Virus record (IMG/VR): IMGVR_UViG_3300036981_000153
Location: 1-20,573 of that record
Source of the DNA: a virus
Reading direction: 5' to 3' (one strand)
DNA length: 20,573 nucleotides
The position numbers were made by a program, and so were the translations under genes. Each line of letters starts with the position of its first letter. The first letter of the stretch is position 1. The notes beneath the pieces are model-generated. The model made no database searches and was not told where the DNA came from. It was given only the letters and a program-made list of their open reading frames with translations. This document shows, piece by piece, positions 7,323 to 19,084 of the stretch.

Positions 7323-9364
7323 TACTGGGAAGTAAGCTACCCTCGGATTACCAGATAGCCCATCCAAGATTAATCATCATGGATAGGAACAGTAATGAGT
7401 TAATAGACTCATTAGCCCCTGGGGTAGCGTTAGACCAATTCAGTTACTCCTACTCTGAGGATGCTGCTGATGAAGGGTCTGTAACTTTTAAGTTAACTAA
7501 AGTTGATCAGTTCAACATATTAGCCTTCCGGAAATACCAACACCTGATACTAACCTGGGGTTACCTGGGTGATATGTCAGAACCCATAAGAGTATTAATA
7601 ACTAAGGTAACTGAGACCTATACAGCCAATGGCTTAACCTTACTCCTCAGCTTCTCGGATGACTTCTCGGTATTAAGTGCCGGTAAAAGCTCTACTCTAC
7701 TACAAGCAGAAAACCTTAAGAAGTACTTAGAATGCTTACCTAAGCTGGGCATAGTGGTACAGGCCCTAAAAGCCCAAGCTAAAAACCAGTCGGTTATCAA
7801 GGACTACGCTACTGGCGAGGTACTTCAAGTAGATTGCGTATTAGCCCCTTACTTAATAACTTTAAGGCAAAGGGATAAAGTACACCATGATGCTTCCTAC
7901 TACCATACCAGAGAATTTAACCTCCAAGACGTTCCTGGATTCTGGTCACCCCTGCAGCTACCTGAGGCAGTAGCAAGGGTGATAATACAAAATGAAACAG
8001 GCTCACCCTATGGGGGAGAAACTGAGGTATGTGATGAGAGTGGTAATAGGCCAGTAGATATAGCGAAATTCAAGGCAGAACAGGATCGGCTAGAAAAGCT
8101 AAAGGCTAATGGTATTAAAGTAACAAACGTCCCAGACAGGGTATTCTTTGGTATACCAGAAGGAGCCCAGGGTGAGGGGCAAACTGTAAAAGAAGTAGTA
8201 ACCAGTTTACTTGATCAGTCCACCACTGACACTTGGAAAGTAACTGGCCATGGTAATGCTATGGTAATATATAATAAGAACTTACACCATGACCCAACTA
8301 GAGAGTACATCTGGGGTGGGGAACCTGGGTACTTATTAGATATAACTTTTAGCACTGACTCCCTTTATTCAAGCAATGACAGTGCCTTTTCAAACTTAAC
8401 AGTAGACCCAGAAACTGGGGCCCTTACTGTAAAAGAGTTTATAGATAATAAGAAAAACATGGATGATCTTAATGCCTATGCTGTTGAACAGGCTAATGAT
8501 TTCCTAGCTTCCTTAGAATCTATAACTGGCCCATTAAAAAATCCTTATGATAGTTGGAGTGCTGGTGATTATAAAGATAAAGTGGAAATGGAGAGTAATC
8601 TCATCCGAGCTGTCTACGATCCAAGGGGTTCTGCTAATTGGTTAAAGGGTGATCTAGACCCTAACATAGGTACTATAGGACCCCAAAGGGAACCTGAGTC
8701 TACCCGAATGAAGCTTGATTCAGATTCAGAAGGTAATCCCCGTATCCCTATTTATAGGCCTAAGCATGATATTAATTCCCCAGTAGTAGTAGGCCCGGTA
8801 GAGAAAGAAATGGCAGCACTTGACCAATCTATCTCTAAAATGAAAGAGGGCAGTAGTACCGGCCGTTTGAAAATAACTGCTACTATACTGGGAGACCCAT
8901 CAGTAGTTTGCCATGAGAATATCATATTAAAAGGTGTAAGCGCTAAACATATAGGGATATGCCACATCACTACTGCTACCCATACCATAAGCGCTAAAGG
9001 CTATCAGGTAGCTTTAGACATGTACCCAGTGGGACCTTTACCCTCGGGAGTTACTACCGCCAAGAAAACTACTGGTAAAAAAGAAGCAACAGAAGCTATC
9101 TGTAAAACCTGTCCTCCTCCAGGTACCCCTAGTATCCCAGATCCTGACTTAATAGAAAGATACCCACAAAAGGACTTCTTAATAAGCTATAAGGATAATA
9201 AGGGGGAACAACAATACCGGATGGTAAGGGCTACCGACTGGGGAGCTACCGAGGCTAATATACTGGGTTTAAAAAACCTGGGCGCTATACTACCGGGATA
9301 CAGTCCCAATACCCATATCCGTATAAAAGAGTCTAAAGATAAAGCTAACCTAGTAACCTACTAA
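7319..9364 (+). CDS. Baseplate hub protein (late control gpD / gp27-like)
   Basis: A 681-residue protein expected to form the trimeric hub that connects the tube to the spike. The first 110 residues form beta strands with a 'spike in solution' pattern (FSYSYSEDAADEGSVTFKLT, then LILTWGYLGD), as in gpD and Mu gp44 proteins. About residues 515-570 form the conserved last domain (DPSVVCHENIILKGVSAKHI, then ISAKGYQVALDM), matching 'G.P.l..G..v.l.g......G.y.v....H..s..GY.t.l'. Relative to simple gpD proteins it is enlarged by a central insertion (about residues 150-330) and by a C-terminal tail of about 88 residues starting near a CKTC motif (595-598). It overlaps the spike gene by one base (TAATG). 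Confidence 0.82.
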   Translation: MILGSKLPSDYQIAHPRLIIMDRNSNELIDSLAPGVALDQFSYSYSEDAADEGSVTFKLTKVDQFNILAFRKYQHLILTWGYLGDMSEPIRVLITKVTETYTANGLTLLLSFSDDFSVLSAGKSSTLLQAENLKKYLECLPKLGIVVQALKAQAKNQSVIKDYATGEVLQVDCVLAPYLITLRQRDKVHHDASYYHTREFNLQDVPGFWSPLQLPEAVARVIIQNETGSPYGGETEVCDESGNRPVDIAKFKAEQDRLEKLKANGIKVTNVPDRVFFGIPEGAQGEGQTVKEVVTSLLDQSTTDTWKVTGHGNAMVIYNKNLHHDPTREYIWGGEPGYLLDITFSTDSLYSSNDSAFSNLTVDPETGALTVKEFIDNKKNMDDLNAYAVEQANDFLASLESITGPLKNPYDSWSAGDYKDKVEMESNLIRAVYDPRGSANWLKGDLDPNIGTIGPQREPESTRMKLDSDSEGNPRIPIYRPKHDINSPVVVGPVEKEMAALDQSISKMKEGSSTGRLKITATILGDPSVVCHENIILKGVSAKHIGICHITTATHTISAKGYQVALDMYPVGPLPSGVTTAKKTTGKKEATEAICKTCPPPGTPSIPDPDLIERYPQKDFLISYKDNKGEQQYRMVRATDWGATEANILGLKNLGAILPGYSPNTHIRIKESKDKANLVTY

Positions 9365-10017: not shown

Positions 10018-10406
10018 AACACATAGATGTAGAATTAGAATTACGGAAAAAGCTTGGTATCACTATTCATAAGAATATGTCTATACCTGAGATACTGGGC
10101 CAGTGGCAAAAAGTACCACAACCCATACAAGCTGCTTACCCAGAGATAACTCAATCTATTGCTAAACTACAAACCGCCTATTCATTGTATCTAACGGGTA
10201 AAGCCTTAAAGGAAACTTTGCATGAAGCGTATATAATACAGAAGGAGGTTTTAGAAGATGGTTCATCTTTCCTTTATGCCCCCTCTTTACCTATCGCTAA
10301 GCTATCAGATAAAGGCCAAGAACTTATCCTGCAAGGGGAGGCTGCCGCATTAAATTATGCAGTAGACTTTGCCTATACCAAACTGGTAGAAAGCCTAACC
10401 AAATGA
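10014..10406 (+). CDS. Small helical baseplate-region protein, unknown function
   Basis: A 130-residue, mostly helical, soluble protein that I do not recognise. It is charged at the N-terminus (KHIDVELELRKKLG) and has alanine/leucine-rich helices from about residue 45 to the end. It starts inside the spike stop codon (ATGA), with a weak AAGG/AGG purine stretch just upstream, and ends 23 bases before the gp25-like wedge gene. Placement between spike and wedge suggests a baseplate part, an assembly chaperone or a tip-associated factor, but the sequence itself shows no diagnostic motif. Confidence 0.7.
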   Translation: MKHIDVELELRKKLGITIHKNMSIPEILGQWQKVPQPIQAAYPEITQSIAKLQTAYSLYLTGKALKETLHEAYIIQKEVLEDGSSFLYAPSLPIAKLSDKGQELILQGEAAALNYAVDFAYTKLVESLTK

Positions 10407-10429
10407 TATGAGACTAGACCTTATAGTAT

Positions 10430-10837
10430 ATGGCAAATAACTTATTAAGCACAGTAGATCAAAAGGGTTTAACTTTTCCTATTATTATAGCGGAAGGTAC
10501 AGTGGCACTATCTGGGTATAAAGAACTCATAGAATCCTCTATCCTTAATATTCTACATTGGCCATTACATACCTTAGACTTTAATCCAGACTTTGGATCA
10601 AGGTTGGAAGAGCTACTGGGAGAACAAAATACCGTTGTATTAGCGACTCTAGTAAGAAAGTTCTTATATGATGCACTAACTTTATATGAACGTAGAATAA
10701 GTATACTAGATATATCTATAACTATACCCACGGTATCTTCTATGCACGTAGTAGTTAGATATATTATACTCGCCACTTCAGTAGTGGGAGAATTAGAAAT
10801 AACCCGTGAAATCCCCGCCCCTGATGAAACTAACTAA
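10430..10837 (+). CDS. Baseplate wedge protein (gpW/gp25-like)
   Basis: A 135-residue protein with the GPW/gp25 pattern: an N-terminal hydrophobic strand (FPIIIAEGTVALSG), a segment SILNILHWPLHTLDFNPDFG, then SRLEELLGEQN, where NPDFGSRLEELL (residues 52-63) matches the signature 'RPdFG..l.elLFe'. The C-terminal half has a helix followed by beta strands, as expected. Members form the inner wedge that links the sheath initiation ring to the J-type protein. The family was once called lysozyme-like, but no muramidase activity is implied. The stop overlaps the baseplate J start by 14 bases, so the two are probably co-translated. Confidence 0.87.
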   Translation: MANNLLSTVDQKGLTFPIIIAEGTVALSGYKELIESSILNILHWPLHTLDFNPDFGSRLEELLGEQNTVVLATLVRKFLYDALTLYERRISILDISITIPTVSSMHVVVRYIILATSVVGELEITREIPAPDETN

Positions 10838-12530
10838 CCCCTGGGTAGGCTATCTAGATAGATCCTACAAAACTATAAAAGCCTCTATCCTAACCCGTAT
10901 CAGAGTAACTATACCAGAGCTAACTGACCTAAGTGACAGCAATATACTGGTAATAATAATCAGTATCTTTTCAGGTATAGCGGAACAACTGAACTACTAC
11001 ATTGATACCGCTGCAAGGGAGTTATTCCTAACCACTGCTAAACGGACTTCCTCTGTATATAAAATATCCCAACTGCTAAACTATTCAGCTAAGGCCCGTA
11101 CAGCAGCTTCTGTAGATTTACTATTTACTACAGATGCCCCTGTAGATAACCCTGATTTAGTAATACCCATAGGTACTGTAGTAACCTCAGATAATGGGTT
11201 CCAATTTATAACCACAAAAACTTTAGCTTTTACCCCTAATACCTCAAAACTAATAGTTCCCGCCAAGCAGAGGGTAACTATTAGCCCCTATACAATAACC
11301 AATAATACCCAACCTGGCTGGAGTATACCCCTACCCCCTGATTATGAACATGGGTCAGCGGGGCTACAGGTAGATGGCATAGCTTGGACTCTCAGGGAGA
11401 CATTAGCATTCTCTAGATACGGTAGTGCTGATTTCAAGGTAATAGCTTATCAAACTGAGGGGGATGACGGTACTATAGGCCACCAGATCCAAGTAGGAGA
11501 TGGGCTATTGGGGATGTACCCAGAGGAGGGAACTAATATTACTATAAGCTACTGTATCACCTATGGCAGGAGTGGTAATTACGTACCCGCTCTTTCCATA
11601 AACACCATTCAAAGTAGTATAACCATACCCGTACAGGACCCAGCAGTGACTCTATCAGTAACTAACCCCCTATCTCCAAGAGGGGGTACTGATGTAGAGG
11701 GTAGAGCAGAGATAGTAAAATATGCCCCCTTATCTCTTAAGACTTTAGACAGGGCAGTAACTAGACAGGATTATATTGACATAGCTAAACTAGCTCCGGG
11801 TGTAGATAAGGCAGCTTTACACTTTAACTGTGGTAAATATGTAACCATCTACGTAGCACCCACTGGGGGTGGTATAGCTCCAGATAGTCTATTAGGTGAG
11901 GTACAAATTTACTTTGACTCCCGTAAGATGGTAACCACCCTTACCAGTATAAAGGCGGCAGGGGAGACCTTTATCAGTATGGAAATACAGGCAGTTGCAA
12001 AATTTAGGGTAGACCCCACCTTAGCCAGGAGAGATATAGAAGAAGCTTTAATCACTGCTTACTCTGAGAGCACCAGTGATATAAATAAACCTGTAAGATT
12101 ATCTGATATCATAGCTTTAGTAGATAACCTAGATAAGGTAGACTACCTAACAGTACATAACCTGTCTGCAATACCTTACGCTAGGCCTGTAGGGCATGAT
12201 CAACAGCTTTCATGGAATGCTCAGGTTGGGCCAAGCTCGGTTGAGATACTTAAATGGAAACTAATATTCACGGGTGGAGTTTTTAAACTCTACAAGGGCA
12301 TAGACTTTGTATCAGATATAGCTTCTAATGCTGTGTATGATATACCAGGTCTGTTAACTATCCAACCCATAGAGTCAACTGGTACTCCTTTTAATGGTAT
12401 GTATTGGGAATTTTATACTTACCCCTTTAATACTGATATAGTATTACAGGATTATACTGTACCCCGTATAGATCCCTATATGAACTACATAAACTTGACT
12501 GTAACTGGCCAATCCTATATAAATGGATAA
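10824..12530 (+). CDS. Baseplate J-like wedge protein (gp47 / gpJ / gp6 family)
   Basis: A 568-residue protein. Residues about 285-335 hold the Baseplate_J signature: LSPRGGTDVEGRAEIVKYAP, then LDRAVTRQDYIDIAKLAPGV, closely fitting 'GG.d.Es..e.r..a......RAvt..Dye.la...pgv'. The N-terminal 100 residues form helices with a wedge-like pattern (ILVIIISIFSGIAEQLNYYI). The protein joins neighbouring wedges around the hub and carries tail protein I. I chose the ATG at 10824. A GTG at 10806 would add six residues, but the ATG gives the usual short N-terminus and a 14-base overlap with the previous gene. It overlaps the tail protein I gene by eight bases. Confidence 0.9.
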   Translation: MKLTNPWVGYLDRSYKTIKASILTRIRVTIPELTDLSDSNILVIIISIFSGIAEQLNYYIDTAARELFLTTAKRTSSVYKISQLLNYSAKARTAASVDLLFTTDAPVDNPDLVIPIGTVVTSDNGFQFITTKTLAFTPNTSKLIVPAKQRVTISPYTITNNTQPGWSIPLPPDYEHGSAGLQVDGIAWTLRETLAFSRYGSADFKVIAYQTEGDDGTIGHQIQVGDGLLGMYPEEGTNITISYCITYGRSGNYVPALSINTIQSSITIPVQDPAVTLSVTNPLSPRGGTDVEGRAEIVKYAPLSLKTLDRAVTRQDYIDIAKLAPGVDKAALHFNCGKYVTIYVAPTGGGIAPDSLLGEVQIYFDSRKMVTTLTSIKAAGETFISMEIQAVAKFRVDPTLARRDIEEALITAYSESTSDINKPVRLSDIIALVDNLDKVDYLTVHNLSAIPYARPVGHDQQLSWNAQVGPSSVEILKWKLIFTGGVFKLYKGIDFVSDIASNAVYDIPGLLTIQPIESTGTPFNGMYWEFYTYPFNTDIVLQDYTVPRIDPYMNYINLTVTGQSYING

Positions 12531-13245
12531 TCTACAAATACCTAAGCTAAACACAAAATTCCCCAACTATTTTTGGGAGAAGGATACTGCCTTAGTACTG
12601 TCCCGGCTATTGGCTGAGTTAGATAATGAGATGGTAGATTATTATTATGCTATACCCAATTTACTATGGCAGTATGACTCCTGGGAAATTGATGGAGACT
12701 TCCTAAACTATCTAGCAGAGATGCTGGGAAATCCTCCCAGTCTACCTTATGGCCAAGAGTATGGGGGTAATAATTTCCCATATAGAACTCTATTAAAATT
12801 TATACCTATTGTATATAAATATAGGGGTACTGACCTTGGGTATGTTATGATGTTTAAGTTGATCGGCTTAGATGTTTGGACAGAAGATTTGGGTATACCC
12901 ATATATAGGTATGACGATGAATACCTGTATGATGAGGGGTTAAGGTATGATGGTAATTGCCCAGCTTGCTCATACTATAACCTACACATCCGGGAAAGTA
13001 TAGATGGAGATAGCCCTAATTGGCCCACTATAGCTGGGGAGAAATCCCCACAAGAACTACTAGACATTCTATCACCCTTCATAAAGTTTGTTGAGCCCAT
13101 TAACGCAGTATTATCTAAAATTATATATGGGGATAATACCGAAGAGCCTATAGAAAATAACTGGATATTAACCACGGGTATATGGGCTAATCAGTGGAGA
13201 TGGGATGATTCTAAGTACTGGAGAGATGAGCCTTTAGCACCTTAA
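12523..13245 (+). CDS. Tail protein I-like baseplate wedge / fibre connector
   Basis: A 240-residue protein directly after baseplate J, where P2 gpI-type proteins sit. The first 120 residues are helical with a family-like run: ALVLSRLLAELDNEMVDYYY, WEIDGDFLNYLAEMLGNP, and a later PYRTLLKFIPIVYKYRGTDL. A core of 'L..la...g......w....rr..i......ry.GT..a' is typical of tail protein I. The C-terminal half is rich in Trp, Tyr and Asp (GIWANQWRWDDSKYWRD near the end) and has a CPAC pair at about residues 146-149. Family members connect the wedge to the tail fibre, and the fibre gene follows 28 bases later. Confidence 0.8.
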   Translation: MDNLQIPKLNTKFPNYFWEKDTALVLSRLLAELDNEMVDYYYAIPNLLWQYDSWEIDGDFLNYLAEMLGNPPSLPYGQEYGGNNFPYRTLLKFIPIVYKYRGTDLGYVMMFKLIGLDVWTEDLGIPIYRYDDEYLYDEGLRYDGNCPACSYYNLHIRESIDGDSPNWPTIAGEKSPQELLDILSPFIKFVEPINAVLSKIIYGDNTEEPIENNWILTTGIWANQWRWDDSKYWRDEPLAP

Positions 13246-13273
13246 CTAAGTTACACAATTAAATTATACAATA

Positions 13274-14218
13274 ATGGCAAGATACGTATTCACAGGAGGT
13301 GACGGGGCTACCGGGGAAACTGGTTTAATCGTAAGGAACGGGCTTAATGCTAACTTCTTAGAACTCTACAATTCTCTACATGCTAGGGCCCACTCTTTAA
13401 CCAGCGCCACAGACCACTCAGCATCAGCTGCAATTGATAGGGGTAAATTTCTTAAATCCCACCCAACTACCGGTTTACCAGTATGGCTGCCTATTGCCAT
13501 AGATGATCTACCCGGTACAGTAGCATCGGCATCTGACCTAACCAACCACATACAAAATGAGGACAATCCCCATGGAACAAGCTTATACCAGATATCAGAG
13601 GCCGGAGCGGGTATAACCTTTATCCCCATAAATAATACAGTCGGTATTAATGTAGCTTTAATTGAGGGGGTAGGTTTAGATTTTGATGTAGAATCTGGTA
13701 AATTTCTACGTGTAAATAATACTAATCTACTCAACCAGGGTAGTACCCCAGACTCTGATAATGACGTGATAGGAATAACCTATCAGACTGGGGAATCCTC
13801 TTACCTACTAACACTGGGAGATCTTAAAGCCTGGCTACTATCAGGGGGAGCTTCTATGCTACAGACCTATGTAGTTGACCCCACCACGGGTAAACGGGTA
13901 GAGGTAGTAGCTACTGGTGCTGGTGTAACTTGCTCCTGGAGCAGCGGTAATAATTTAAGCCTTAATATCCCAGCCGGGGTAGAGGTCTTAAGTTTAATGG
14001 TAAGCTTATCCGGCTATCCTAATATGGTACTAATGGTAAACTATAGCTCTACAGACCGGGACTCTGGTATCTGGTACCCCATGATGCAGGCTTGGCGTAT
14101 GGATACAAAAAACCAATTAGTGGGTGTAACCTTAACTGGCGATGCTATAACCTTAAACAAGTTCACTATTGCAGGTCTAATAAACACTACCACAAATAAC
14201 ATAAGAATAACCATATAA
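13274..14218 (+). CDS. Tail fibre protein
   Basis: A 314-residue fibre-like protein. The N-terminus starts with a YVFTGGDGATGETG segment and then His-rich tail-fibre repeats: HARAHSLTSATDHS (residues 36-49) and LTNHIQNEDNPHGTSLYQI (89-107). The latter matches the short 'H......NPHg.t..qi' repeats common in phage tail fibres. The remainder is beta-rich and Ser/Thr/Gly/Asn-rich, ending in a strand-only domain (about 220-314), as expected for a trimeric tip. It abuts the next gene with a one-base overlap (TAATG). I could not identify an intramolecular chaperone, so the tip may be carried by the next protein. Confidence 0.72.
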   Translation: MARYVFTGGDGATGETGLIVRNGLNANFLELYNSLHARAHSLTSATDHSASAAIDRGKFLKSHPTTGLPVWLPIAIDDLPGTVASASDLTNHIQNEDNPHGTSLYQISEAGAGITFIPINNTVGINVALIEGVGLDFDVESGKFLRVNNTNLLNQGSTPDSDNDVIGITYQTGESSYLLTLGDLKAWLLSGGASMLQTYVVDPTTGKRVEVVATGAGVTCSWSSGNNLSLNIPAGVEVLSLMVSLSGYPNMVLMVNYSSTDRDSGIWYPMMQAWRMDTKNQLVGVTLTGDAITLNKFTIAGLINTTTNNIRITI

Positions 14219-17200
14219 TGGCAGAGAAACTATTCCAAGCCCGTATTGACATATTAACTGTAATAGAGCTTAGTAGTACACTATGGGATATTACAGCTAA
14301 TGTTGTGGATATATCTGGATCTTTTACAGCTCTTGATATGCAAGTGGGGGATAAGGTACTGATAACGGGGGTAGGAGTAACTGGTATTACAGTATACGAT
14401 AGGTATGTAGTAGTAGAGATAATAGGTAGAGATACTGTTTTCTGTAACTTTACTATTTCCTATGATGAAACGGGTACTCCAAAGACGATGAACGGTTACC
14501 CCCTAACCGGGCCCCACTTAGTGGGTAGGGCTTATGGCACAGACAACATACTAATGGAAATGCCATCATCCCATGAGATAGAAGATGAGTTCAGGAAAGA
14601 CCAGGGCATGGTTAATATGAACCTACATGAACTAGCCACCCACAGTGGGCCTGGTGGTATTCTTGAAGATGATATCCTGGCATTCGCTGAAGGTGCTTAC
14701 AGACCCTACTGGGAAAAACCTGACAGTGAGGTAGCCTCCCCAGTAATATACTATGGGGCAATAGAGGATCCCACCCAATTACCTTCGGGGATATCCAGGG
14801 TATTCTTAAATGGCGCTTGGGTAGCAACTGCCTTTGAAGTGTTCAAACGGGATGAAATTGAGGGCAAGGTAAGAGAAAACCGACTGAGGGATAAGTGGCT
14901 AAGATTAGGTAGTGGGGCAGCATCGGGCCAATTTGAGGTTAGTGAAAATATGCTACATATAGGGGGATACACTCCCGGGGGTACAATAATAACCCGCATT
15001 GGTAGCACCGGTGAATTTTCAAGTACTAATGCCTTCAAACCCGTTAGTATCTCAGTATTGGGTCAAGAGGTTAGCTTTACTAATCCTACCACATGGTATG
15101 CAAGGCTAGTTTTTATTGGGGGAGAATTTGATACCCGTTCTGAATTTTCCAATGAATTTACTTTTTTAACTTCCGATACCCAACCCTTTACAGGCTTATC
15201 CTATTACTGTTTTGATCAAGGGCACTTCTCTGGGTTTGTTATGATATACGGTACTGAGCCAGGTGTATATACATATTTAGAAAGTTACTGGGGGGTAGAG
15301 TCTCCCGCTTACTTCGAACTTTCTTTAGGAGAGTTAGTTCCAGACTTACCTACTCTAAGGGCTATCCCTTATGAAAAGATTTTGGCACCTGCCCCAATTA
15401 ACCATGAGTATATTGAGGTGGATGACTTCAACCAGCTTTTCTCGGTTAACATGACAAATATCAAACTCCTAAAGGGGTTGCCCGTTTATGATACTGTAGA
15501 AGATGCTAGGGCTGATGGGCTACCCGTGAACCAATTATTCAGGACTTCAACAGGGCACGTGATGATAAACTTCTCTACTGCCCTACCCATGAGGTTTTTA
15601 GCGGATTATAACAATACTTATGAGGCTACCTTACAAGCTAACTTTGATTTTATTTTCCCAGATCCCCCTTCCGTACCCTTTACTATAGATTGGGGAGATG
15701 GAACTCCTCCTGAAGAAATAACAGAATACATTAATAAAGGTACAACATTTGCGATCTTCCTTTCTCACACTTATGGGAGGTTATCTGTTTGTACCATAAC
15801 ATGGAACTTTGATATTATAGAAACTCCCGTATACATAGGTATTGGCGGAGCTATAACAGGCTGTCCCAGCCTTGTGGAGCTACCCTGTATCAATTGGTGG
15901 TTTTACGATGCTATGGAGTTTCCGGATGAAGTACTTTATGTTGGGGTTGAAACATTAAATGTTTACACAACTAAAATCTTTACTCTAAACCTTGATTGGT
16001 TTACATCTTTAAAAGTAGTTAACATCTCCATATGCCCAATGTTTACAGGTCTAGGTTTAACCACGAGCCACATCATAGAGGAACTTTACATAGACCAATG
16101 TTCTGAATTTATTAATTTACCTGACTTATCTCTTTTACAGGGGTTACACTACCTTAGTTTTAATAGCTCAATAAACCTACCTTCAGCTTCTATTAATGAG
16201 ATATTGGGTTACTATAAAGATACCTACCTTCCAGAACTACTTCAAGTGAACCTATCAAACACGTCATTTGCCGATCCAACCCTGCTTAGTGAGGCTATGG
16301 CTAATAACCCACAATGTATTTTTTACGTTGATACCTCTATGGCACTAGCTGGGGTCATAACCAGTGTTGCCAATACCAGTATAGGGATCCAGTTAGCATT
16401 CCCGGAACTTATAGGTGGGGGTTTTACAATATATTTTGGGGATGGGGACTCGGCAACCTTTAATAATAATACCAGTACTCTGATCACTGATTGGGGCACT
16501 TACTACAGTGGGGAGATTAACCATGAGTATGTGAATGCCGGATACTATGAGGTTAGGGTAGAAGTAGATTTACATACTGCTGGGGTTATTAAGATATGGC
16601 TTGATCCCGATAACCAAGGGGTTATGCAATCTTTATTTATGTACAGGGACTTGGTACAACTTTGGGTGGGTTCTTATGATGGCCAAGATATTTCAAATGC
16701 TACCAACCTAAGGAAGTTAGAAATAAACAGGGCAACTGAAGTGGGTATCCCTAACCTAAGTAAACTAACCCAACTAGTAACGTATGAAGATATTGGATCT
16801 CTTACTACCACACCAGCCGATTTTTCCTACAATACCCTGTTAGAAAACCTAACCATAGCAGAAACCTATTTGGCTACTCCCCCAGACCTATCCCCTTTCG
16901 TATCTACTTTAAAGTATCTAAATATATCCTATTGTGGGAACCTAGCATCCCCACCAGACATAACGGGGTTAACTACCTTACAGGTATTAACCCTACTAGG
17001 GTGCACTCTATTTACCCAATCCCACATTGATAGTTTATTTGATTACTTCTCTGTTTTAAGGCCTACTATAGTGGCAGCTCAATTAGGGGGGAATGGTAGA
17101 ATCCCAACCCTAAGTAAGGTAGCCGCCGCACAAGCAGCAAATCCACAATGTAGCTTCGAGTGGGATGAAACAATATTTTTAGCAAGGGTTTCCGTTGGCG

Positions 17201-17907
17201 CTAACGAAGAAGCTAATTTTGCTTTGGTTACCCCAGCAGAGAATACAAACCCTGTAAGATTTGATTACGGGGATTCCAATTACGATGATATTTATAATGA
17301 CGTAACCAAAATGGACGGGTATGCTTATTTTGCAAATCAATCGTATGTATATTCTGGTGATTATGAAGTAAGGATAGACAACAATTTATCGGATTGTTAT
17401 TTACTAAGTGTAAACAGGGCGCTTATCGTAAACTTGCACACTATGCCACTTATGAAGTATTTGTGGTTATTTAATTATAGAGGAACAGAATTACCCGACT
17501 TTACAAAAGTTCCTTTACTAGAGAATTTTCAACTGGTAAATTTTACTCAATCATTACCCGTTATCGACCTTTCGGGGTTGCAATACCTAAATACATTTAA
17601 TATTTATGAAGGGGAAATAGCGGGGATTGATATTTCAGATTGCCCTTTACTTGAAGAAATAAGTATTTATGCAGTAGCACTGGCAGAAATACCAACACTT
17701 ACAGGACACGATTATTTAACGATCCTTAGCTTGCGATACTGCGAATTAACGGTTGAATTGGTAGATGAAGTTCTAACGTATTTCGGTACATATAGGGCTA
17801 CAATAACGTATGTTTATTTAGACCAGAATGCCGTCCCAACGCCGAGCGTATTGCTTGCAGCCCAAACAGCAAACCCTCAATGTACATTTACCGTAGACCA
17901 AACTTAA
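14218..17907 (+). CDS. Large PKD-like / leucine-rich-repeat tail protein, probable receptor-binding protein
   Basis: The longest gene in the window (1229 residues). Residues 1-450 are a beta-rich, fibre-like region that probably attaches the protein to the tail. From about residue 470 there are three copies of a composite module. Each has a PKD-like beta sandwich (IDWGDG at 490-495 with HTY at 517-519; YFGDGD at 739-744 with HEY at 769-771; DYGDS at 1016-1020 with SYVYSGDYEVR). Irregular leucine-rich repeats follow (for example LPDLSLLQGLHYLSF; PDITGLTTLQVLTLLGC; LPVIDLSGLQYLNTF). A helical cap closes each module, ending in ANNPQC (695-700), AANPQC (973-978) or TANPQC (1217-1222). The protein ends seven residues after the last cap. 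In bacteria PKD and LRR modules bind proteins and carbohydrates, so a host-recognition role is likely but inferred. A structural fibre shaft is the alternative. Confidence 0.78.
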   Translation: MAEKLFQARIDILTVIELSSTLWDITANVVDISGSFTALDMQVGDKVLITGVGVTGITVYDRYVVVEIIGRDTVFCNFTISYDETGTPKTMNGYPLTGPHLVGRAYGTDNILMEMPSSHEIEDEFRKDQGMVNMNLHELATHSGPGGILEDDILAFAEGAYRPYWEKPDSEVASPVIYYGAIEDPTQLPSGISRVFLNGAWVATAFEVFKRDEIEGKVRENRLRDKWLRLGSGAASGQFEVSENMLHIGGYTPGGTIITRIGSTGEFSSTNAFKPVSISVLGQEVSFTNPTTWYARLVFIGGEFDTRSEFSNEFTFLTSDTQPFTGLSYYCFDQGHFSGFVMIYGTEPGVYTYLESYWGVESPAYFELSLGELVPDLPTLRAIPYEKILAPAPINHEYIEVDDFNQLFSVNMTNIKLLKGLPVYDTVEDARADGLPVNQLFRTSTGHVMINFSTALPMRFLADYNNTYEATLQANFDFIFPDPPSVPFTIDWGDGTPPEEITEYINKGTTFAIFLSHTYGRLSVCTITWNFDIIETPVYIGIGGAITGCPSLVELPCINWWFYDAMEFPDEVLYVGVETLNVYTTKIFTLNLDWFTSLKVVNISICPMFTGLGLTTSHIIEELYIDQCSEFINLPDLSLLQGLHYLSFNSSINLPSASINEILGYYKDTYLPELLQVNLSNTSFADPTLLSEAMANNPQCIFYVDTSMALAGVITSVANTSIGIQLAFPELIGGGFTIYFGDGDSATFNNNTSTLITDWGTYYSGEINHEYVNAGYYEVRVEVDLHTAGVIKIWLDPDNQGVMQSLFMYRDLVQLWVGSYDGQDISNATNLRKLEINRATEVGIPNLSKLTQLVTYEDIGSLTTTPADFSYNTLLENLTIAETYLATPPDLSPFVSTLKYLNISYCGNLASPPDITGLTTLQVLTLLGCTLFTQSHIDSLFDYFSVLRPTIVAAQLGGNGRIPTLSKVAAAQAANPQCSFEWDETIFLARVSVGANEEANFALVTPAENTNPVRFDYGDSNYDDIYNDVTKMDGYAYFANQSYVYSGDYEVRIDNNLSDCYLLSVNRALIVNLHTMPLMKYLWLFNYRGTELPDFTKVPLLENFQLVNFTQSLPVIDLSGLQYLNTFNIYEGEIAGIDISDCPLLEEISIYAVALAEIPTLTGHDYLTILSLRYCELTVELVDEVLTYFGTYRATITYVYLDQNAVPTPSVLLAAQTANPQCTFTVDQT
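15625..17904 (+). repeat. Three-fold PKD-LRR-cap protein repeat inside the receptor-binding gene
   Basis: Module 1 covers about 15625-16335, module 2 16336-17169 and module 3 17170-17904. The helical caps align throughout: INEILGYY, IDSLFDYF and VDEVLTYF at residues 659, 937 and 1182, each leading to NPQC followed by a Phe-x-x-Asp ending (IFYVD, SFEWD, TFTVD). The modules are clearly diverged at the DNA level, so this is an old duplication or assembly by exchange rather than recent copying. Module 3 also uses different wording of codons (more CG-containing and GTT/TTG codons) than modules 1 and 2. Confidence 0.75.
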
Positions 17908-17911
17908 CAAT

Positions 17912-18457
17912 ATGGAAACAGGATTTTTAAAACAGTATTTTATAGTAGGAGAAAAACTACTATGCTTTATCCCAAGGACGGGAAGCACAAGCCTGTTAAA
18001 ACTGATAGAGGATAAACATTACCCTTTTATGCGGAATGTTAAAGTAGCCCCTCAATTTCGTATTCCCTCCCGTCCCGATGACGGGAAAAGCGAACTGGTA
18101 AGCATGATTCGGGAACCCCTTTCCCGTTTCCTTTCGGGCTGTGCTCAAAAAGGCTATACCGTGGAACAAGGTATTGCAGAACTGCAAAAGCCAAGGGTAG
18201 ATATTCACATTCGCAGCCAGTACACATTTCTAAGCGAAAAACGGGAAACCAAACTGTTTCGCTTTCCCGATGAACTTACAGCCTGTGCCGAATACTTAAA
18301 CTTACCGACACCCATACCGCATTTGAATGTAAGCGTAACAAAACCTGAATTAACACCGGAACAGGAAGCCTGGTTAAACCAATACTACCACATAGATCTA
18401 AAACTGTGGGAAGATGGGAAGATAACCTACCCTTTGTTAATGTTACAAATTAAGTAA
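17912..18457 (+). CDS. Sulfotransferase-like enzyme encoded in the tail-fibre cassette
   Basis: A compact 181-residue protein resembling PAPS-dependent sulfotransferases of the Golgi-type/Sulfotransfer_2 group, which move sulfate to sugar hydroxyls or tyrosine. The 5'-phosphosulfate loop is visible as CFIPRTGSTSLL (residues 18-29), and the 3'-phosphate site as MIREPLSRFLSGC (65-77, with R67, R72 and S75 in the expected spacing). HIRSQYTFL (99-107) corresponds to the 'H..pQ..fl' segment. The C-terminus has LNVSVTK, then YYHIDLKLWE, matching the usual 'N.s ... Y..D..ly' end. It is shorter than most relatives (230-300) but keeps all core elements. It starts four bases after the receptor-binding gene with no Shine-Dalgarno. 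A small perfect inverted repeat (17942-17948 with 17957-17963) lies in its first codons. Its GC content looks higher than that of the tail genes (33 of 60 bases over 18061-18120). The substrate is unknown. Confidence 0.8.
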   Translation: METGFLKQYFIVGEKLLCFIPRTGSTSLLKLIEDKHYPFMRNVKVAPQFRIPSRPDDGKSELVSMIREPLSRFLSGCAQKGYTVEQGIAELQKPRVDIHIRSQYTFLSEKRETKLFRFPDELTACAEYLNLPTPIPHLNVSVTKPELTPEQEAWLNQYYHIDLKLWEDGKITYPLLMLQIK

Positions 18458-18500: not shown

Positions 18501-18830
18501 ATGACCACTTACCTAATTAAAAGAGAAAGAACCATAACTCGCCAAGAGGGAGACGTAGCAGATGTAGTGTTTACGGTGCCTAATATATTCAATCTAGTAG
18601 GTAAAACAATTAAGTTCAAAGTATATACTTATGCTAAAGAAGAGATACTAGAACTCTCTTCTGGGAATGGCATAACGGTTGATACACAGACCATAACCTG
18701 CTTATTATCACCTTCTCTTTTAGTGGGCTATGCAGGTAAACATAGGTGGGAATTGGAAGCCTCTGATATAACTGGCCCTATTACCATAGGTAAGGGGGAC
18801 TTCATAGTAACCGGTGAAAACATAACTTAA
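18501..18830 (+). CDS. Small beta-sandwich baseplate/fibre-attachment protein (BppU N-terminus-like)
   Basis: A 109-residue, all-beta protein. The layout resembles the Ig-like N-terminal domain of baseplate upper proteins and fibre attachment proteins: an opening strand with a positive-then-acidic turn (RQEGDVADVVFTV), FNLVGKTIKFKVYTY ('dLtG..v.f.v'), a GNGITVD turn, a strand with a glycine turn (LLVGYAGKHRWELEAS), and GPITIGKGDFIV at the end. Such domains dock fibres onto the baseplate. The gene follows a 43-base gap containing AAAGG seven bases before the ATG, one of the few Shine-Dalgarno-like elements here. It overlaps the next gene by one base (TAATG). The family assignment is by pattern only. 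Confidence 0.6.
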   Translation: MTTYLIKRERTITRQEGDVADVVFTVPNIFNLVGKTIKFKVYTYAKEEILELSSGNGITVDTQTITCLLSPSLLVGYAGKHRWELEASDITGPITIGKGDFIVTGENIT

Positions 18831-19084
18831 TGGCTGAACTACTGGATATCTCTATTGATACCCCAATATACATTGAGCTAGAGATAACTGGGGGTATAGC
18901 TATAAACTTTGTACAGTCTGGTCCCACCGGGGCCCATGGCCTATCCGCTTACCAGATGGCTGTTGCCCGTGGTTACGTAGGAACAGAAGAGCAATGGCTA
19001 GCAGATCACTTCCAAAGGATTTGGAAACAACAGGACGAACCCATAGGGGCAGCAGATGGGGACCTCTGGATAAAACTAAGATAA
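18830..19084 (+). CDS. Small tail-fibre accessory protein with GPTGAHGLSAYQMAV motif
   Basis: An 84-residue protein. The centre has a short collagen-like Gly-X-Y start (GPTGAHG) followed by LSAYQMAVARGYVGTEEQWL (residues 38-57). This matches the frequent phage fibre motif 'G..G.SAYe.A...GfvGTe.eWL'. The end, with EPIGAADGDLWIKL, resembles the 'P..GDLWi' closing strand seen in fibre and adaptor proteins. No membrane segment or signal peptide is present. It shares a start/stop overlap with the preceding beta-sandwich gene, suggesting that the two form one attachment unit. Confidence 0.65.
   Translation: MAELLDISIDTPIYIELEITGGIAINFVQSGPTGAHGLSAYQMAVARGYVGTEEQWLADHFQRIWKQQDEPIGAADGDLWIKLR

Follow-up and report, generated by a model that had tools for sequence, protein, structure and literature searches.

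The protein of 1229 residues encoded at 14218-17907 (+ strand) of the window, by which we mean the whole 20,573-base virus record that was analyzed, carries three repeated composite modules, each combining a PKD-like front domain with leucine-rich repeats (LRRs). A single copy of this module, followed by a homologue of the same partner gene, occurs in an otherwise different phage. We consider it fairly probable that the protein is a modular adhesin associated with the contractile tail of an uncultivated phage, that its LRR faces bind the host surface, and that module and partner gene constitute a mobile cassette. These observations are best explained by host recognition, which is the most likely putative function.

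Three diverged modules in one protein

A first-pass annotation had described three composite modules in a gene at 15625-17904. The open reading frame is real, but it begins at 14218, and position 15625 falls inside the first module. Residues 1-444 (14218-15549), presumably the virion anchor and shaft, gave no family match, no relative, and no convincing solved structure. The modules follow on the same strand: module 1 spans residues 445-708 (15550-16341), with a PKD-like domain at ∼15592-15804, irregular LRRs, and the motif NPQC at 16306-16317; module 2 spans residues 709-986 (16342-17175), with a PKD-like domain at ∼16345-16563, LRRs that number about one repeat more than in modules 1 and 3, and NPQC at 17140-17151; and module 3 spans residues 987-1229 (17176-17904), with a PKD-like domain at ∼17176-17382, LRRs, and NPQC at 17872-17883. 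NPQC lies at residues 697, 975, and 1219, and each module ends ∼7-8 residues beyond it. The proposed GDG/GDS turn is present in every module, as WGDG, FGDG, and YGDS, respectively.

The repetition is clear when it is evaluated quantitatively. Compared with 1000 shuffles, local alignment scores were higher by 5.5 SD for modules 1 and 2, by 13 SD for modules 1 and 3, and by 26 SD for modules 2 and 3. Leave-one-out profiles, which took in the single module of the second phage (L002) besides those of the window, gave 60-110 bits for every module, with 1000 shuffles reaching at most ∼8 bits. For the PKD-like half alone the scores were 19-40 bits, against a shuffle maximum of 11; for the LRR half they were 45-87 bits, against a maximum of 10. 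The front and rear halves each repeat independently, far above shuffled sequence, and the shuffle tests and profiles together bear out the threefold composite architecture first proposed.

The three modules share 20-29% identity with each other and 27-36% with the L002 module, and no DNA-level tandem repeat was found within the window modules, which argues against recent duplication. These values suggest that the modules either were copied long ago or come from a wider pool of such units, two origins that four sequences cannot separate.

Folds of the two halves

The LRR class of the modules is firm, since profiles and model agree. We took as LRRs repeats of the LxxLxL type, 20-29 residues long and recognized by LRR profiles, and the modules contain such repeats: Pfam PF25019 matches at 35.2 bits (cut-off 27), LRR_4 matches the L002 protein at 33.5 bits (cut-off 27), and a profile built from the modules matches LRR chains in the PDB down to E = 2e-14. 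The AlphaFold model of module 2, computed with the four modules as the alignment (pLDDT 80.5, pTM 0.78), opens with about seven strands and continues as an LRR solenoid of parallel strands, with two helices near the end. At Z∼14-15 it matches LRR proteins in the PDB, among them SALM2, internalins, and VLR-derived repebodies.

The assignment of the front domain to the PKD family is only suggestive: "PKD-like" is a fair description, and membership is not established. Pfam PKD matches module 2 alone, at 19.8 bits, below the cut-off of 23.5, and has no match in module 1, module 3, or the L002 protein. The motif [WFY]GD[GS] is found in all modules, while the full HEY...GYYEV pattern is confined to module 2. 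When the modules were aligned by hhalign with the PKD domain of a baseplate-region protein from a related locus (L010, see below), only the GDG turn was aligned (E = 0.097). In the module 2 model, seven strands are predicted ahead of the LRRs, but a PKD fold match is not separable from the LRR part, and the list of PDB structure matches is filled by LRR proteins, with no separate PKD match. Of the PKD-plus-LRR architecture in the earlier description, the LRR part stands, and the PKD part holds as PKD-like, short of the Pfam cut-off.

The structure prediction recommended at that stage was informative at the level of the single module, where it returned a beta-sandwich followed by an LRR solenoid. 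The model of residues 445-1229 (785 residues, two-row alignment) was poor, with pLDDT 46 and pTM 0.33, and its overall shape is not reliable; a helix-strand-helix-strand end recurs in it at each module end. The helical cap said to end in NPQC needs revision in one respect: NPQC is present at all module ends, but in the module 2 model the last helix (residues 256-265, module numbering) leads into a turn formed by NPQC and then into a final beta strand (270-273).

A single-module relative and its shared partner gene

In the viral collection, the module profile matched one further locus, on the contig L002. This contig, from another phage, encodes a 288-residue protein with one module and a different N-terminus, its gene lying behind those for terminase and portal. 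The LRR unit of this protein is a 69-bp, 23-residue repeat present 3.2 times with 91% match, indicating that LRR number changes by unit duplication. The expected variation of modules among relatives is therefore seen, as three modules in the window gene versus one in L002 and as LRR-unit expansion, in a comparison that rests on one relative. The N-terminus of the single-module protein has a repeating Y-x-G motif (L002 7902-7990, MYKGDKEIVKMYVGETQIIKRYKG), which was not found in phage records. Close relatives of the whole protein were absent from phages, plasmids, and viral contigs; neither the module profile nor the protein had a match in the phage collection as a whole; and the module pattern gave no confirmed relative in the genome collection.

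Four bases downstream of the adhesin gene lies a gene for 181 residues (17912-18457, + strand) that the first-pass annotation overlooked. A homologue directly follows the adhesin gene in L002 as well (8781-8984). The L002 contig stops after 68 residues of the partner, and over these the two proteins are 66% identical; at the DNA level the two phages share 78% identity across 174 bp that begin in the last adhesin codons and continue into the partner gene. Nothing else in these comparisons of window and L002 gave a further substantial match. Because the same gene comes next in both phages, the unit is better described as a two-gene cassette, and the occurrence of a single module beside the same partner in an otherwise different phage points to a modular, probably mobile adhesin. 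The cassette occurs in two contigs that otherwise differ, with different N-termini and either one or three modules, and it would have moved between phages by recombination.

The partner gene is the least expected part of the finding. Its protein resembles sulfotransferases in its motifs (CFIPRTGSTSL, MIREPLSRFLSG). We defined sulfotransferases by PAPS-binding motifs in order (IP[KR]..., then R..P..R..S) together with C-terminal Q.xF and Y..D motifs, and in an alignment with seven Sulfotransfer_2 proteins the motif order is alike. Both main motifs occurred in order in none of 20,000 shuffles, for a motif chosen after the fact, and with a sulfotransferase profile the protein ranked 4 among 2000 shuffles. 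The protein has no match in Pfam, NCBIfam, or the PDB; the gene is absent from phage records, where even at E = 10 only chance-like matches appear; and a pattern scan returned only the L002 contig. The statistical support for a resemblance to PAPS-binding motifs is moderate. That a phage sulfotransferase in a mobile two-gene cassette sulfates the LRR adhesin or its glycan target, and so tunes binding or blocks superinfection, is a speculative extension that we regard as improbable.

Genomic setting, probable function, and known relatives

The virus record encodes a contractile tail, including sheath, tube, tape measure, a hub/lysozyme-like protein, a gp25-like wedge, and a gp6/J-like wedge. 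On the + strand, the gene for the last of these (J, 10806-12530) is followed by genes for a 240-residue protein (12523-13245), which comes after J in relatives too, a 314-residue protein with no family match directly upstream of the adhesin gene (13274-14218), the 1229-residue adhesin, the 181-residue partner, and small fibre-like genes at 18501-19084. These last encode a 109-residue protein with no family match and an 84-residue protein that contains a brief collagen-like stretch, GPTGAHG, and weakly matches tail and tail-fibre proteins. The adhesin gene thus lies among the baseplate and fibre genes, where a receptor-binding or tail-fibre gene would be sought.

To place this locus, we compared it with other viruses carrying J. 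Seventeen viral loci share the J gene at 32-63% identity, and gut phage records share it at ∼32-38%; most of the loci that extend far enough have a recognizable homologue of the gene after it. Neither the adhesin nor its N-terminal part was found in these loci, and the modules are absent elsewhere in those viral records; because some loci end soon after J, the longer ones alone give a firm absence. Retention of J, and usually of the next gene, with the adhesin missing is as expected of an adhesin slot, and the gene probably occupies a variable one. In L015, the matching place behind J is occupied differently, by a 1560-residue protein (10282-14964) that matches DUF2793 and tail fibres. In L010, the gene after J (11722-12935) runs off the contig; its protein has a clear C-terminal PKD domain (PKD_4, 46.3 bits) and a weak Tail_P2_I match, which shows that baseplate-region proteins in this group can carry PKD domains. 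A contig of a Cloacimonadota MAG (L022) carries J and the following gene with the same coordinates and scores as L014; this contig may represent a prophage, or phage DNA binned in error, and would then offer a hint about hosts. In a whole-genome profile search of 125 genomes of the phylum of this MAG, all matches were partial and mostly confined to the LRR portion.

The mechanism that we favor builds on this setting. Because the N-terminal part matches no family, attachment to the virion is argued from gene order: the first 444 residues would anchor the protein to the baseplate or fibre region. The concave LRR faces of the three C-terminal modules would then engage a ligand at the surface of the host cell, with the PKD-like domains serving as spacers or co-binders and the three copies providing reach or avidity. 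The L002 protein adjoins portal and terminase, outside any tail cluster, and a protein with this module need not always be a tail protein.

This position of the L002 copy near head genes also fits a different reading, in which the modules are environmental adhesins for mucus, epithelial, or matrix glycans that keep the phage near its hosts, as has been proposed for the PKD, BACON, and Ig-like proteins of gut myoviruses and for T4 Hoc. Adherent gut phages carry PKD and other Ig-like domains, and BACON/Ig-like proteins conferred epithelial binding on a different phage that displayed them (PMC13370021). We nevertheless consider this unlikely: the bulk of each module is LRR rather than Ig-like, the copy in the window belongs to the baseplate/fibre region, and no LRR protein is described in that study. 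PKD-like domains commonly act as spacers, and small fibre-like genes come next, so the modules could instead lengthen a fibre while another product, such as the small proteins encoded at 18501-19084, performs recognition. The C-terminal position of the modules, their strong divergence (identity as low as 20-29%), and the role of LRR arcs as typical binding surfaces make this quite improbable. Equally doubtful is a non-virion role in which adhesin and sulfotransferase-like protein form a mobile accessory pair in or on the infected cell, for example changing surface glycans so as to exclude other phages: the pair is conserved in otherwise different phages at different genome positions, but the window gene has tail genes around it and its large N-terminal part fits a structural protein.

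Should the modules indeed bind the host, as host recognition by the adhesin implies, the folds known from phage receptor binders would gain the LRR arc, and the sulfotransferase-like gene beside it would become a testable lead on modification of adhesin or receptor. The two phages clearly exemplify the use of whole PKD-LRR modules, either singly or in threes and joined to different N-terminal anchors, together with a conserved partner gene.

It is instructive to compare these modules with known proteins. We found no literature joining LRRs, a PKD domain, and phage receptor binding. The view that LRRs are unusual in a phage tail protein must be tempered, since LRR and PKD-domain proteins are known from other phages. 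A vibriophage tail module contains an LRR-like protein, the most variable there and proposed to act in host recognition, although the LRR call is weak (10% HHpred probability; PMC10945359). The BFVD proteins A0A8S5RYD6 and A0A8S5LDI4 are likewise LRR proteins of tailed phages. Unlike the window gene, neither the vibriophage nor the BFVD LRR proteins have been described as having PKD-LRR composite modules. The best structure match to module 2 in the viral library is the BFVD entry A0A6J5NQL4 (E = 1.7e-8 over 314 alignment columns), annotated in an uncultured Caudovirales phage as "PKD domain containing protein", which superposes poorly (TM 0.50/0.28, rmsd 11); judged from these models, it possibly has the same PKD-plus-LRR layout. 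In gut phages, PKD domains occur in every member of one group of myoviruses whose predicted hosts are Bacteroidota (PMC13370021); the adhesins of gut phages are modular, use PKD, and belong to myoviruses like the protein studied here, but they bind epithelium and no LRRs are reported in them (PMC13370021). Internalins, VLRs, and repebodies share the LRR solenoid with module 2 at the Z scores given above, but they are cellular or engineered, are only 11-20% identical, and show no PKD-LRR triplication. Against the LRR and PKD proteins already known in phages, composite PKD-LRR modules linked to a partner gene are a new variant.
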